Source: Croceicoccus estronivorus (GTDB taxonomy: Bacteria; Pseudomonadota; Alphaproteobacteria; Sphingomonadales; Sphingomonadaceae). Taken from it: a stretch of DNA of 64,000 bases. The stretch lies in the NCBI RefSeq assembly GCF_001625325.1, contig NZ_JRQQ01000002.1, positions 248,001 to 312,000 on the forward strand. The letters run 5' to 3'. Both the position numbers and the translations under genes were made by a program. Shown in pieces: positions 1 through 6,400 of this stretch (positions are counted from its first letter, which is position 1; every line of letters starts with the position of its first letter). The notes under the pieces are model-generated. The model was not told where the DNA came from. It worked only from the letters and a program-made list of their open reading frames with translations, and ran no database searches.

Positions 1-579
<579 letters not shown>

Positions 580-639
580 TTAACGCTCCGTTTCATGCTG
601 CAATGCATTATGTTATGAAGATGCGGCCTCCTAGCTATG

Positions 640-664
640 GGAACCATGGCAGGCAAGTCGCGTT
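640..664 (+). promoter_or_regulatory. Putative EcfG (general stress sigma factor) promoter
   Basis: GGAAC at 640-644 is followed after exactly 16 bases by CGTT at 661-664. This matches the -35/-10 pattern known for alphaproteobacterial EcfG sigma factors (GGAAC-N16-17-CGTT). It lies about 75 bases upstream of the ATG at 740 and points into the small-protein cluster. The motif match is direct; use by EcfG is inferred. Confidence 0.6.
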
Positions 665-739
665 GAAAAGAGGGGCGGGAAATGGCACTTTCCGTCTGAT
701 ATTCGTCAGTCCACGAGATCAATAGAGAGGACTATCGTC

Positions 740-1342
740 ATGGCCGAGAGCACCACCCGCAAAAGCACCCGTTCCACAAAGGCGAAGAGCACCGCAGCCC
801 CTCCCGTCGACAACCGCACGGAAGCAAAGTCAAAGTTTTCTGCGGCTTTGGAGGAAGCGAAAGCTGGCGTCGCCGCCTTGGGGCGCGAGGCGCAGGTTCA
901 GGCCGATAGCCTCAAGGGAAAAGCAATGGGCAAACAGGCCGAGTGGCAATCCGAAGCCAAGACCTACAGCGAACAAGCTAAAGCCAAAGCAGGAGAATTC
1001 GCGTCCGACGCAAAGGTCTATGGTGATCAGGCAAAGGCCAAGGCAAGTAAACTTGCAGCCGACGGTAAAGCCAAGACCAGCGAAGCTTTGAGCTTGCTTG
1101 GCAAGACTGTAGCGGACAATGCCAGCACAATCGATGAAAAGCTGGGTGAAAAATATGGAGATTACGCCCGCTCCGCGGCACGATCCATCCAGGAAACAGC
1201 AGCCAAGCTCGAAGCGAAGAGCGTCGAGGACATGGGTGAAGATGCCAAGGAGTTCGTCCGCAAGAGCCCCGGCCTTGCTGTCGGCATTGCCGCTGTCGCC
1301 GGCTTCATGGTTGCACGGTTGTTCAAAGGCTCGAAGAATTGA
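740..1342 (+). CDS. YqjD/DUF883-like membrane-anchored helical protein
   Basis: A 200-residue protein rich in Ala and Lys. It has a basic N-terminal tail (about residues 1-25) and a long helical, probably coiled-coil middle with imperfect repeats containing EQAKAKAGEFASDAKVYGDQ. A single C-terminal hydrophobic segment follows SPGLAVGIAAVAGFMVARL, then a basic end. This is the architecture of the ElaB/YqjD (DUF883) family, inner-membrane proteins reported to associate with ribosomes in stationary phase in E. coli; the helical part also resembles phasins. An SD (AGAGAGGA, about 724-731) precedes the ATG. It is first in a cluster with the three following genes and lies behind an EcfG-like promoter, suggesting stress induction. 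The molecular function is not known from sequence. Confidence 0.75.
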   Translation: MAESTTRKSTRSTKAKSTAAPPVDNRTEAKSKFSAALEEAKAGVAALGREAQVQADSLKGKAMGKQAEWQSEAKTYSEQAKAKAGEFASDAKVYGDQAKAKASKLAADGKAKTSEALSLLGKTVADNASTIDEKLGEKYGDYARSAARSIQETAAKLEAKSVEDMGEDAKEFVRKSPGLAVGIAAVAGFMVARLFKGSKN

Positions 1343-1375
1343 TTTCAATACCGGTCAACGGTTCGATCACTAGCC

Positions 1376-1762
1376 ATGGATGAACGGGACGAAGACGCGG
1401 AAAATCTCCGGCATGAGATACCGGATCAGCAGAATGAATCCCTTTTTGACGATGTCAGCGGTCTGATTGACGATGGGCGCACGCTCATCGAAGCGGAGTT
1501 GGCATATCAAAAAACCCGCTTTGCCTATGCAGGGCGAAGGGGACGGAATGCTGTTGTCTTTGGAATACTTGCAGCAATTTTGGCGGTGTTCGCCCTGTTC
1601 GGGCTCGTTGTCGGGGCGATCTTGGCGCTTACTCCCCACTTTACTGCTTGGGGGGCGACAGGCGTGGTCGCAGGCTTACTACTGATATCGGGAATCTTGT
1701 TTGCCTTGTTAGCAGCCAGAAACGCACGATTGATTGCAAAGGTCTTCAAAGAGGGAGAGTGA
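1376..1762 (+). CDS. YqjE-like phage-holin-superfamily membrane protein
   Basis: A 128-residue protein with an acidic N-terminus, a short amphipathic stretch (SLFDDVSGLIDDGRTLIEAE) and two hydrophobic helices (about residues 58-82 and 90-112) ending in a short charged tail. This is the usual layout of the YqjE / holin-superfamily-III proteins that accompany YqjD-like genes. It starts 33 bases after the previous gene and its TGA overlaps the next ATG (TGATG at 1760-1764), so translational coupling is likely. The family name rests on layout and context; no catalytic residues are visible. Confidence 0.65.
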   Translation: MDERDEDAENLRHEIPDQQNESLFDDVSGLIDDGRTLIEAELAYQKTRFAYAGRRGRNAVVFGILAAILAVFALFGLVVGAILALTPHFTAWGATGVVAGLLLISGILFALLAARNARLIAKVFKEGE

Positions 1763-2079
1763 TGGGTAGGCAAGAAAGAATTTTGTCGGAATACAAGGCA
1801 TTGCGGGATGCCGCTCATGCCGCATTTCGAACCAATCTTGACCTTGTCCGTTCGGAGTTTGCCCCAGAGGCTATCGCACAACGCGCAGGCGAAAAGGCCT
1901 CTGCCCTATCCAGCAGTGCCACAGAAACAATCAAACATCATCGCGGAGCCCTTGTAGGAGGCATTGCTGCGGCAACACTCGCCGCCACACTCGTCTTTTG
2001 GTTGAGGCGCAGCTCGTCTCAGGGCGAAAATTGTAACGATGTGGAGGGGGACAACGATGAAGATAAGGAAATCTCATGA
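1762..2079 (+). CDS. Small single-span protein, possibly DUF3618/YqjK-like
   Basis: A 105-residue protein starting MGRQERILSEYKALRDAA. It has a helical soluble part (residues 1-60), one hydrophobic segment (about 64-82, GALVGGIAAATLAATLVFWL) and a polar acidic tail. I chose the ATG at 1762, which overlaps the stop of the previous gene, over an upstream alternative that would run deep into the YqjE-like gene. The pattern of a short charged helix plus one membrane span is shared with DUF3618 and YqjK-type proteins that sit in yqjD-like clusters. The assignment is tentative and function is unknown. Confidence 0.6.
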   Translation: MGRQERILSEYKALRDAAHAAFRTNLDLVRSEFAPEAIAQRAGEKASALSSSATETIKHHRGALVGGIAAATLAATLVFWLRRSSSQGENCNDVEGDNDEDKEIS

Positions 2080-2549
2080 CCGATGATCCCCAACTTAAAG
2101 ACATAAAGCAACGTGTGGAAGCCGCTGAGACGCGAAACAGCCAGCGATTGGCCGACCGTGCAGCACAAGCAAAAAACCGTGTCGCGACATTTATCGGCGA
2201 GCATCCTGTCGCATCAATTGCCAGTGGCATTGCTGTGGGCACGTTAATTGGCACGCTCATTCCTAAACGGCGGGCCTCTGTTAAAATGGGCGCTCTCGCG
2301 GCGCTGGTCGCTGAAGCCGGTGCTGAGATTGCCCAGCGCAGTTGGCAATCGGCCCGCAACACTGGTCGTGCTGGACAGAAAAGCCTCGAACATTTAGGGG
2401 ATCGCGTATCGGACAGCACAATCGGCCTACGCGAGGAGATCGAGCGCTTTGCAGAAGAAGCGATCGAGAATGTTCGTAGTGCCGGCAAGCAAGCGTCCCA
2501 ACAGGCCAAGAGCGTGACCGGGAAAATCGGGTCACATCTTCGCCACTGA
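2076..2549 (+). CDS. Helical anchored protein, DUF883/YtxH-like
   Basis: A 157-residue protein overlapping the previous gene by four bases (ATGA). It has an N-terminal charged helix (residues 1-36), a glycine-zipper hydrophobic stretch (about 42-62, VASIASGIAVGTLIGTLI), then a long amphipathic, Ala/Gln/Glu-rich helical region to the C-terminus. It therefore looks like a circular permutation of the first cluster member, with the anchor near the N-terminus and the helix after it. The family assignment is by architecture only. Co-translation with the upstream genes suggests these proteins act together, perhaps at the inner membrane. Confidence 0.6.
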   Translation: MTDDPQLKDIKQRVEAAETRNSQRLADRAAQAKNRVATFIGEHPVASIASGIAVGTLIGTLIPKRRASVKMGALAALVAEAGAEIAQRSWQSARNTGRAGQKSLEHLGDRVSDSTIGLREEIERFAEEAIENVRSAGKQASQQAKSVTGKIGSHLRH

Positions 2550-2620: not shown

Positions 2621-2842
2621 ATGCAGCTTCTTCACCTGGTAATGGGCGGGCGCGTCAAAAACCCCCAAAGTCTCGAATTTGAGGATCTGACGAAGATCGA
2701 CTTGGTGGGTGTCTACGGCACTTATGCCGAAGCGGAGGAAGCTTGGCGCAGCCATGCGCAGCGCACTGTCGATGATGCTGAAATGAAGTATGTCATTGTT
2801 CACCTGCACAAACTGCTGGAGCCCAAGCTCCCAGGTGAATGA
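2621..2842 (+). CDS. DUF4170 domain protein
   Basis: A 73-residue protein beginning MQLLHLVMGGRVKNPQSLEF and containing the core VGVYGTYAEAEEAWRSHAQRT. These are features of the small DUF4170 family common in alphaproteobacteria. It is soluble, has no signal peptide and no assigned function. It starts 72 bases after the stress-protein cluster with a weak SD (AAAGG, about 2606-2610) and ends just before a strong hairpin shared with convergent greA. The family call is from recall of the conserved core. Confidence 0.7.
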   Translation: MQLLHLVMGGRVKNPQSLEFEDLTKIDLVGVYGTYAEAEEAWRSHAQRTVDDAEMKYVIVHLHKLLEPKLPGE

Positions 2843-2883: not shown

Positions 2884-3351
2884 TCAGATGAATTCAATCT
2901 TGTCGACAAGATAAAAGCGTTCACCCGAGGGCACGGTAACTTCAATTTCGTCACCTACCTTGCGCCCGATCAGCGCCTTGCCAAGCGGCGAATTATAAGA
3001 AATTCTTCCCACCTTGGCGTCAGCTTCAGTCTGACCGACGATCTGATAACGCACTGGTTTATCATCATCGTCCAAAAGGGTCACAGTCGCACCGAACACG
3101 ACCTTGTCACCCGACAGCGTTGTGGGGTCGATAATCTGAGCCCGGCTGACGCGATCTTCCAGATCGGAAATCTGCGCCTCGACCTGACCTTGCCGTTCTT
3201 TTGCCGCATGATATTCGGCATTTTCCGAAAGGTCACCATGAGCACGCGCCTCCTCGATCGCATCGACGATACGCGGCCGTTCTTCCCTCAGGGCCTTAAG
3301 ATCGGCAGTCAGCTTCTCATAGCCTTCCGCCAGCATCGGCACCTTTTCCAT
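2884..3351 (-). CDS. greA: Transcription elongation factor GreA
   Basis: Cleaves backtracked RNA in paused RNA polymerase by delivering acidic residues through the secondary channel. The 155-residue protein begins [20 protein letters not shown]. It has the N-terminal coiled coil (about residues 10-75) with [13 protein letters not shown], which includes the acidic tip residues, and a C-terminal FKBP-like domain with [18 protein letters not shown]. The length is normal. It lies 114 bases downstream of carB in the same direction, the usual carAB-greA order in alphaproteobacteria, and may be co-transcribed. Confidence 0.97.
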
Positions 3352-3464: not shown

Positions 3465-6400
3465 TTAGGCGTAATAATCCTGAAGTGAGCGTACTTCAAG
3501 TTCGCTTGTTTTGGCAGCCGTAATCGCCTTTGCCACGGCCACGGATGCAGCTGCGGTGGTGAAATAAGGCACCTTGTTTTCCAGAGCCGATGCACGGATC
3601 GATTGCGAATCTTTCAGGCTCTGCCAACCTTCCGTGGTATTGAAGATTATCGCAACGTCACCGTCGATAATCTTGTCGACCACATGCGGCCGCCCTTCCA
3701 GAACCTTGTTCACCTGCTCAACCGATAGACCGGCCTTGATCAGATAGTCGTGGGTCCCGCCAGTCGCAATGACCTTGAACCCATTCTCGATCATCTCCTT
3801 CACAGCCGGCAAGATCACCGGTTTGTCGCTGTCCTTAACGGAAACGAAAAGCACACCCTTTTCCGGAAGCCGGAGACCAGCCCCCATCTGCGCTTTGAGA
3901 AAAGCCATCGGGAAATCGCGATCAATGCCCATGACTTCCCCGGTTGATTTCATTTCCGGTGACAGCACCGGATCAGTGCCAGGGAAACGGGTAAAGGGAA
4001 ACACGGCTTCCTTGACTGCCATGTAATCCACCTCGCGCCGGATCGGCGGCAGGGAAGACAAGGCTTCACCGGCCATTACACGCGCAGCAATCTTTGCGAC
4101 AGGGCTACCCACAGCCTTGGCGACAAATGGTACGGTACGACTCGCGCGAGGATTAACTTCGATCAGATAGACTTCGCCATCTTTAATCGCGAACTGCACA
4201 TTCATAAGGCCACGGACATTGAGACCCCGAGCGAGGGCATCGGCCTGACGCTCCATCTCTGCCACGATCTCATCTGTCAAACTGTAAGGCGGAAGAGTGC
4301 AAGCGCTATCGCCCGAATGAACTCCCGCTTCTTCGATGTGCTGCATTACACCTGCAACTACGACCTGTTCGCCATCACAAAGGGCATCGACATCGCATTC
4401 GATCGCGTCCCTCAAATATTGGTCGATCAAAACAGGGCTGTCGCCTGACACGTTGACTGCAGTCGCAATGTAATCGTCAAGTTGGGCTTCCGAGTCGACG
4501 ATTTCCATCGCCCGGCCGCCCAGGACATAAGATGGACGCAGCAAAACGGGGTAACCGATCCGTGCGGCCACAGCTGCGGCTTCATCCCGACTCCGAGCAA
4601 TCCCGTTAGCCGGCTGTTTGAGACCAAGCTTTTCGACGAGCGCGGAGAAACGTTCCCGATCTTCAGCCAAGTCGATCGCATCAGGCGATGTACCAAGGAT
4701 CGGAATCCCGGCATCTTCCAGCGGCTGGGCCAATTTGAGTGGAGTTTGGCCTCCAAATTGCACGATAACGCCTACCAACTCGCCTTTGCTCTGCTCAACC
4801 CGCAGAATTTCAAGCACGTCTTCAGCCGTCAGCGGCTCGAAATAAAGGCGATCCGAAGTGTCGTAATCGGTCGAGACAGTTTCCGGATTGCAATTGATCA
4901 TGATTGTTTCGAACCCTGCTTCGTCAAGCGCAAAGCAGGCATGGCAACAGCAATAATCGAACTCGATGCCCTGCCCGATCCGGTTCGGCCCCCCGCCCAG
5001 GATCACAACCTTGCGGCGATCCGTTGGCATCGCCTCATCTTCCGGTTCACCAAAGCTAGGCGCCTCATAAGTCGAATACATATAGGGCGTAATTGCTTCG
5101 AATTCGGCGGCACAACTGTCGATCCGCTTGAATACCGGGTAGACGCCGAGTTTGTGGCGCAACTCGCGCACTTCTTCCTCACTGGTCGCACCAGCCATGG
5201 CGCGGATCGCATCGTGCAGCAGGCCCGAACGCTTGGCCTGTGTCTCACCCAGCCCACCAGCGACATGGACGGAGCGGACAGCTAAAGTGGCAAGGCGCTT
5301 GTCAGAAAAGCCCATGGCCTTCACGCGACGCATTCCTGCTGCGTCTGTGGGCAAGCCATGCTCCGAAATCTGTGTCTCTTCGGAAATGATTTCCTCGATA
5401 TGGCGCAGGAACCACTTATCATACGCAGTGATCGCGTGGACCTCGTCCACGGTGAAGCCTTCACGGAAAGCCTGCGCAATTTTCAGAATACGATCCGGTG
5501 CGCGCACTGAAAGCGCAGCAGTGACGGCTTCTTTCCCGGCCCCCTCAAGCTCAACAACGCGATTGAAACCGTCCAACCCGGTTTCAAGCCCGCGAAGAGC
5601 CTTCTGCATGCTTTCCTTGAAATTCCGGCCAATAGCCATGACTTCGCCGACCGACTTCATGGCCGTGGAAAGCTCTACCTTGGCGCCTTTGAATTTCTCG
5701 AACGTGAAACGCGGAATTTTGGTGACGACATAGTCAATGGTCGGTTCGAAACTGGCTGGAGTCGCCCCTGTGATCTCATTAGTGATCTCGTCCAAAGTGT
5801 AGCCAACAGCGAGCTTGGCCGCGACCCGCGCGATCGGGAAGCCGGTGGCTTTCGATGCCAGCGCCGAACTACGTGACACACGGGGATTCATCTCGATCAC
5901 GATCAGGCGACCATCATCCGGATTGACCGCGAACTGAACGTTGGATCCGCCTGTTTCAACTCCGATCTCCCGCAGCACGGCAATGCTCGCGGAGCGCATG
6001 ATCTGGTATTCTTTATCAGTTAAAGTCAGTGCCGGGGCAACGGTGATGGAATCGCCCGTATGCACGCCCATCGGATCGACATTTTCAATCGAACAGATGA
6101 TAATCGCATTGTCGTGCTTGTCGCGCACGACTTCCATTTCATATTCTTTCCAGCCCAGCAGGCTCTCTTCGATCAACACTTCAGTCGTGGGGCTGGCATC
6201 GAGCCCTTCCCGCACAATCTTTTCGAATTCTGCCTTATTATAGGCAATACCACCGCCAGTACCGCCGAGCGTGAAGCTTGGGCGGATGATTGAAGGCAGG
6301 CCTGTGTTCTCCAACACAGCGAAAGCTTCGTCCAACGTATGCGCCACACCGCTACGCGCGGATTCCAGGCCAATCTTGTCCATCGCTTCACGGAAACGCT

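Follow-up and report, generated by a model that had tools for sequence, protein, structure and literature searches.

The 163-bp gap that separates the glycolytic enolase gene (eno) from a cluster of four genes, here called P1 to P4, carries an EcfG-type stress promoter facing the cluster and a probable eno promoter on the opposite strand, and the two are interlocked, with the -35 box of each placed inside the spacer of the other (Table 1). The interlock of the eno promoter with the stress promoter is what is new here, and the original prediction for this DNA had missed it. We propose that the gap is a two-way promoter: on the forward strand, EcfG would read GGAAC-N16-CGTT and transcribe P1-P2-P3-P4, and on the reverse strand the housekeeping polymerase would read TTGCCT-N17-TAGGAG and transcribe enolase. 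Under stress the membrane module would be turned on and eno transcription directly lowered. To this reading as a whole, comprising the two-way promoter, the exclusion of one polymerase by the other and a stress-sigma-driven membrane module of the YqjD/YqjE kind, we assign a probability of about 0.62.

We computed the conservation and geometry of both promoter elements, the conservation of the gene cluster and the family relations of its products, starting from a window (the whole stretch of DNA analysed, 64,000 nucleotides; G000:C11:248001-312000) in a genome of 3.67 Mb. Opposed promoters with overlapping recognition elements on the same DNA are present in it as sequence elements. In the literature searched, which leaves out most subscription journals, we found a description neither of the overlap between the eno and stress promoters nor of the EcfG and holin arrangement.

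Table 1. Positions of the genes and promoter elements at the start of the window
Feature	Position	Strand	Description
eno (enolase), 5' part in window	1-576, start codon 576	-	tblastn gene order, 31 related loci
Probable eno promoter	628-656	-	-35 TTGCCT 656-651, 17-bp spacer, -10 TAGGAG 633-628; conserved columns
EcfG-type promoter	640-664	+	-35 GGAAC 640-644, 16-bp spacer, -10 CGTT 661-664; points into P1-P4
P1	740-1342	+	200 aa; long amphipathic helices, C-terminal glycine-zipper-like anchor, weakly DUF883/YqjD-like
P2	1376-1762	+	128 aa; Phage_holin_3_6 (Holin-X/YqjE-type) membrane protein, two hydrophobic segments
P3	1762-2079	+	105 aa; short, single anchor; probable relative of DUF3618 proteins
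P4	2076-2549	+	157 aa; DUF883-like glycine-zipper anchor, then long helical C-terminal region
DUF4170 protein gene	2621-2842	+	PF13773, E 4e-22; candidate operon member at most
greA	2884-3351	-	convergent; closes the block

Two opposed promoter elements between eno and P1

The original prediction had placed an EcfG-type promoter before P1, and this assignment holds: the match is exact, its position and orientation are conserved among relatives, and the genome's own nepR-ecfG genes lie behind the same motif. The match alone says little, because GGAAC-N16/17-CGTT occurs 54 times in the genome and its reversed control 153 times, that is, the motif is not enriched; for this reason we rejected the genome-wide count as proof of a promoter. 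To assess conservation, we used 31 genomes picked on similarity to P1 with eno adjacent, and compared each count with 300 shuffles. The exact site lies in the eno-P1 gap of 14 of these genomes (shuffle mean 0.07, maximum 2) and the looser GGAAC-N16/17-N[AG]TT in that of 24 (shuffle mean 0.43, maximum 3), counts to be read with the relatedness of the set in mind, since its members, nearly one genome per genus, are not fully independent. On the eno strand of the same 31 gaps, neither the exact nor the loose site occurs. Seven of the 31 gaps have no EcfG-like site, which counts against our explanation, as does the nearest relative (G001), in which GGAAT replaces GGAAC and the eno element is intact. 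The gap of this relative (L039), with its altered stress site and unaltered eno element, is a natural test case.

In the genome of the window, nepR (PF18557) overlaps a gene for an ECF sigma factor (PF04542 and PF08281, Sigma70_r2 and r4; contig G000:C1), and an exact GGAAC-N16-CGTT stands 102 bp before nepR. In Sphingopyxis, nepR2-ecfG1 is reported behind such a motif, and the EcfG consensus there is identical (PMC7083833). The Sphingopyxis regulon also uses TGTT, CATT and GGTT as -10 variants, and the flexibility of the -10 across our gaps fits these (PMC7083833). In Sphingomonas aquatilis, P1 is preceded by GGAAC-N17-GGTT; this site is absent among the 46 compared sites from Table 1 of the S. 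melonis study (PMC6599016), a further point against our explanation. The cluster is likewise unnamed in the Sphingopyxis regulon text (PMC7083833) and in the consulted part of the S. melonis table (PMC6599016). The S. aquatilis locus and a second one, from a record titled Arthrobacter sp. TPD3018 (L189 and L190), have a near-palindromic spacer in the EcfG-like site; the latter record seems to be a Sphingomonas under the wrong name. From the conserved site and its orientation we infer that transcription of P1-P4 would depend on EcfG.

Alignment of the gaps revealed conservation within the EcfG spacer as well, with GCAAG at a fixed place, and a TA that stands 7-8 bases before GGAAC. Read on the eno strand, these two elements form TTGC-N17-TA, a promoter of the housekeeping type; in the interlocked genomes, its -35 begins 59-122 bp upstream of the start codon of eno. 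The 31 gaps were not selected on this motif; 26 of them have TTGC-N17-TA[ACG] on the eno strand, where shuffles average 0.98, and not one has it on the opposite strand. The eno gene itself is present in 59 of 60 genomes of the order, and 16 eno loci from its other families include three with a match to TTG[AC]-N17-TA and none with P1 or an EcfG site. In five genomes (G005, G007, G017, G018 and G021; loci L043, L044, L051, L048 and L042), the eno leader contains, between the eno promoter and the start codon, a conserved stretch like ATATGGGGGTGT...TTACAACACC, which could be a hairpin or a further promoter.

The interlocked geometry and polymerase exclusion

When we searched 249 genomes of the family for the combined pattern GGAAC-N8-GCAAG-N3-CGTT, it was found at 94 places in 88 genomes, against nine places for the reversed control. 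All 94 were inspected: 85, each in a different genome, sit between eno on the minus strand and P1 on the plus strand in the right orientation, and the other nine lie elsewhere, roughly the number that chance would give. The TA of the eno element is outside the search pattern, and in the non-redundant rows its T is kept in 63/63 and its A in 62/63.

Both sites could be placed in 28 of 41 compared sequences (several P1 starts were set by script; the S. aquatilis row gives no count, its P1 start being misplaced, and the short gaps in G069, G229, G268 and G077 may reflect the scripted choice of start codon), and these fall into two arrangements. In 16 genomes the promoters are interlocked, with the EcfG -35 starting exactly 16 bp inside the eno promoter, and in 12 genomes they stand side by side, with the EcfG -35 starting 15-40 bp beyond the eno -35. 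The side-by-side genomes indicate that the eno element is distinct from the EcfG promoter; their gap, with room for both, is no different in size (medians of 171 bp in 15 interlocked and 160 bp in eight separated genomes). In the eno tree, which has 45 rows, 17 of them without a label, a single change accounts for the 16 interlocked rows (support 85/84), and the interlock thus probably arose once.

Because the two promoters share the DNA from 628 to 664, one polymerase would have to exclude the other, and the interlock, judged from this shared DNA, probably confines transcription to one gene or the other at any moment. The closest likeness is with the bidirectional promoters of E. coli, such as PacrR/acrA and PsoxS/soxR, which also consist of opposed promoters on the same DNA; there, a polymerase bound in one direction precludes one in the other, and when one side is strongly activated the opposite side is repressed (PMC12825309). 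If this analogue is applied here, activation by EcfG should lower eno transcription. The E. coli promoters differ in being pseudo-symmetrical (PMC12825309), whereas here two different sigma factors would be involved, the -35 boxes are interdigitated and the register is fixed at 16 bp.

At basal activity the two sides of the E. coli promoters do not compete (PMC12825309), which counts against our explanation and lends itself to an alternative that we regard as a serious one, though with less than even odds: the EcfG-driven cluster would be real and the interlock without regulatory effect, history having fixed the two promoters in one place, where they would be held together, since both spacers would suffer from any insertion or deletion. 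A single origin is indeed possible under it, as the interlocked genomes all fall to one side of a branch when eno is used for the tree, but the gap is not short, as the medians above show, the separated lineage accommodates both promoters side by side, and most of the lineage has kept the interlock. That TTGC-N17-TA belongs to the stress promoter or is bound by a regulator, and is not an eno promoter, is improbable: the probable eno -10 lacks the usual final T, but the nepR promoter of the same genome has no TTGC-N17-TA, the element also lies 56-122 bp before eno where the EcfG site is elsewhere, and its exact spacing of 17, together with the invariance of TTG and TA, is in keeping with a housekeeping promoter.

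The P1-P4 module and its relatives

The original prediction of four closely spaced or overlapping reading frames behind the motif, each with a membrane anchor, is borne out by the coordinates (740-2549) and by the hydrophobic windows. P2 and P3 overlap by 1 nt and P3 and P4 by 4 nt, and translation is probably coupled across these junctions. The best hydrophobic windows (P1 177-195, P2 61-79 and 96-114, P3 63-81, P4 45-63) give P1 a C-terminal anchor, P2 two segments and P4 an anchor near its N-terminus, just as had been claimed.

The cluster is also kept as a unit, as our survey of its conservation shows. P1 was found in 32 of the 59 genomes searched (its own included), which are 32 of the 35 from the same family and none of the 24 from elsewhere in the order. 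In 31 of the 32 loci eno adjoins P1 in the same orientation; in the remaining genome (G033), eno was not found in the stretch fetched. P2 is present in all 32 family loci, P3 as a match other than P1 in 31 and P4 likewise in 29, and the order of P1, P3 and P4 is constant; a search for related loci with P2 as the query gave no matches. P2 and P3 are fused in one genome (G034), and P3 and P4 share one frame in four (G006, G023 and G033, and G020 by reading). Both the fusions and the unchanging gene order speak for a joint action of the products. The P4 ortholog sets leave out G004, G021 and G027, where the best match is P1, and the P3 set leaves out G020; the four protein alignments hold 13, 12, 10 and 8 of the 29-32 orthologs, hand-picked for spread.

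Further downstream, the DUF4170 gene stays in its place after P4 and before greA in most of the family. In 10 of the 32 loci, a gene for the lipid transport protein MlaC (PF05494) follows P4, ahead of the DUF4170 gene where that was found (L055, L056, L059, L061, L062, L063, L066, L067, L068 and L069; in the same order, genomes G020, G014, G034, G032, G031, G030, G006, G027, G033 and G023), and in G006 and G023 a hexapeptide-repeat protein comes after MlaC.

The products had been likened to the enterobacterial order yqjD-yqjE-yqjK, a comparison that stands in part, for the YqjD and YqjE types, and fails for YqjK. P2 matches PF07332 with 41.7 bits (cut-off 28.4), and all eight scanned orthologs match it at E values up to 0.1; the alignment of the P2 profile with E. 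coli YqjE is weak (E 2.7e-4). Between the P4 profile and E. coli YqjD there is an alignment of 60 residues that closes with the anchor (E 1.5e-8), and P4 extends some 90 residues past the aligned part. For P1, the likeness to YqjD is weak and confined to the last 30 residues (E 3.3e-5). An anchor at the very C-terminal end, a trait of DUF883 proteins, is present in P1 (177-195 of 200 residues) and not in P4 (45-63 of 157). Neither protein passes the cut-off of 27 bits for DUF883_C (PF19029), P4 scoring 21 and P1 12.9, a result that we count against our explanation; one P4 ortholog, that of G001, reaches 27.3 bits. The N-terminal DUF883 domain (PF05957) matches one of 12 P4-type members (E 0.013) and none of 10 P1-type members. 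Both P1 and P4 are net basic, and AlphaFold2 models them as all helix with low confidence (mean pLDDT 70 and 52, respectively). P1 of the window (952-1080) and that of G001 have some 18-20 residues more than the other orthologs, in a repeat of the AKxYxxQAKAKAGE type that looks apolipoprotein- or LEA-like by eye.

The identification of P3 with YqjK was rejected, the profile giving E 0.29 over eight columns against the E. coli protein. P3 appears instead to be related to DUF3618 proteins (PF12277): six of the 13 members of its alignment match at E values up to 0.1, the P3 of the window itself giving no match, and among six P3-type relatives scanned against PF12277, five match, four of them above the cut-off. 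In 142 genomes of the class, all six places with DUF3618 (five genomes) adjoin a Holin-X gene.

Similar modules are found elsewhere under other stress sigma factors. E. coli yqjD is under sigma S, and the yqjC-yqjD-yqjE-yqjK operon shares with P1-P4 the stress-sigma control and a YqjD-like glycine-zipper anchor, with a YqjE-type gene next in order (PMC10746276). The cluster described here differs in its P3, in having a second DUF883-like gene, P4, with the anchor near the N-terminus, in an EcfG-type promoter instead of sigma S, and in the adjacent eno. In P. aeruginosa, the envelope-stress sigma factor AlgU drives PA3040-PA3042, again a YqjD-type, a YqjE-type and a third small protein under stress-sigma control; the third gene is without a recognised domain, a fourth member is lacking, and the parts of the study consulted report no eno neighbour (PMC11302039). 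In Actinoplanes, two DUF3618/Holin-X pairs (ACSP50_3381-3382 and 4921-4922) are raised on expression of sigma-H; the same two families stand side by side, in an actinobacterial context and with DUF883-like partners unmentioned in the consulted portion of the report (PMC11205660). The EcfG-driven version thus appears to vary a type of module already known from these counterparts. The statement that the function of such an assembly is not described was only partly true, in that E. coli YqjD and ElaB and Pseudomonas PA3040-3042 have an experimental literature.

We propose that the module is a stress-sigma-driven assembly at the inner membrane, of the YqjD/YqjE kind. P1 and P4 would provide glycine-zipper anchors with long charged helices, P2, the Holin-X/YqjE-type protein, would probably hold the two together, and P3 would be the usual small DUF3618-type partner of P2. 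In non-growing cells, the module would most likely coat or stiffen the inner membrane and perhaps park ribosomes there; we favour an envelope-supporting assembly, of which ribosome tethering may be a part.

In its specific form, envelope support would mean that amphipathic helices of an apolipoprotein- or LEA-like kind rest on the inner membrane and maintain lipid order during stress, a role that we consider plausible and rather short of evenly likely. The apolipoprotein profile is the commonest match of the P1-type proteins (six of 10 members), but the match is far below threshold, at 23 bits where the cut-off is 90, and charged helices often give matches of this sort. The MlaC gene just downstream in 10 of 32 loci hints at an envelope role, but the loci from the window's own lineage yielded none; PA3040-3042 are part of an envelope stress response (PMC11302039). 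A ribosome tether or hibernation factor like E. coli YqjD, with P1 and/or P4 holding 30S subunits at the membrane, is unlikely as the main role. YqjD, ElaB and YgaM do localise ribosomes to the membrane (PMC10746276, PMC5525287), and the 60-residue alignment of P4 with YqjD and the basic charge of P1 and P4 are in keeping with this, but the likeness to YqjD is mainly in the anchor region, PF05957 is nearly absent as detailed above, and overexpression of P. aeruginosa PA3040-3042 does not arrest growth, PA3040-3041 lacking the inhibition seen for the E. coli proteins (PMC11302039).

A possible local switch between growth and survival

The usual definition of a stress-sigma regulon is by the genes that it turns on, and the turning down of growth genes is mostly ascribed to sigma competition or to ppGpp. 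Under the two-way promoter that we propose, RNA polymerase with EcfG would itself be the direct repressor of eno while it opens a membrane-protective operon, and the lineage as a whole would have a growth/survival switch between sigma factors that needs no repressor protein, a tentative suggestion whose chances we put just under even. The conserved geometry of the DNA may hence represent a direct, local trade of eno transcription against a stress operon, and through it a little-understood membrane module (DUF883, Holin-X, DUF3618) becomes linked to a single conserved alphaproteobacterial promoter.
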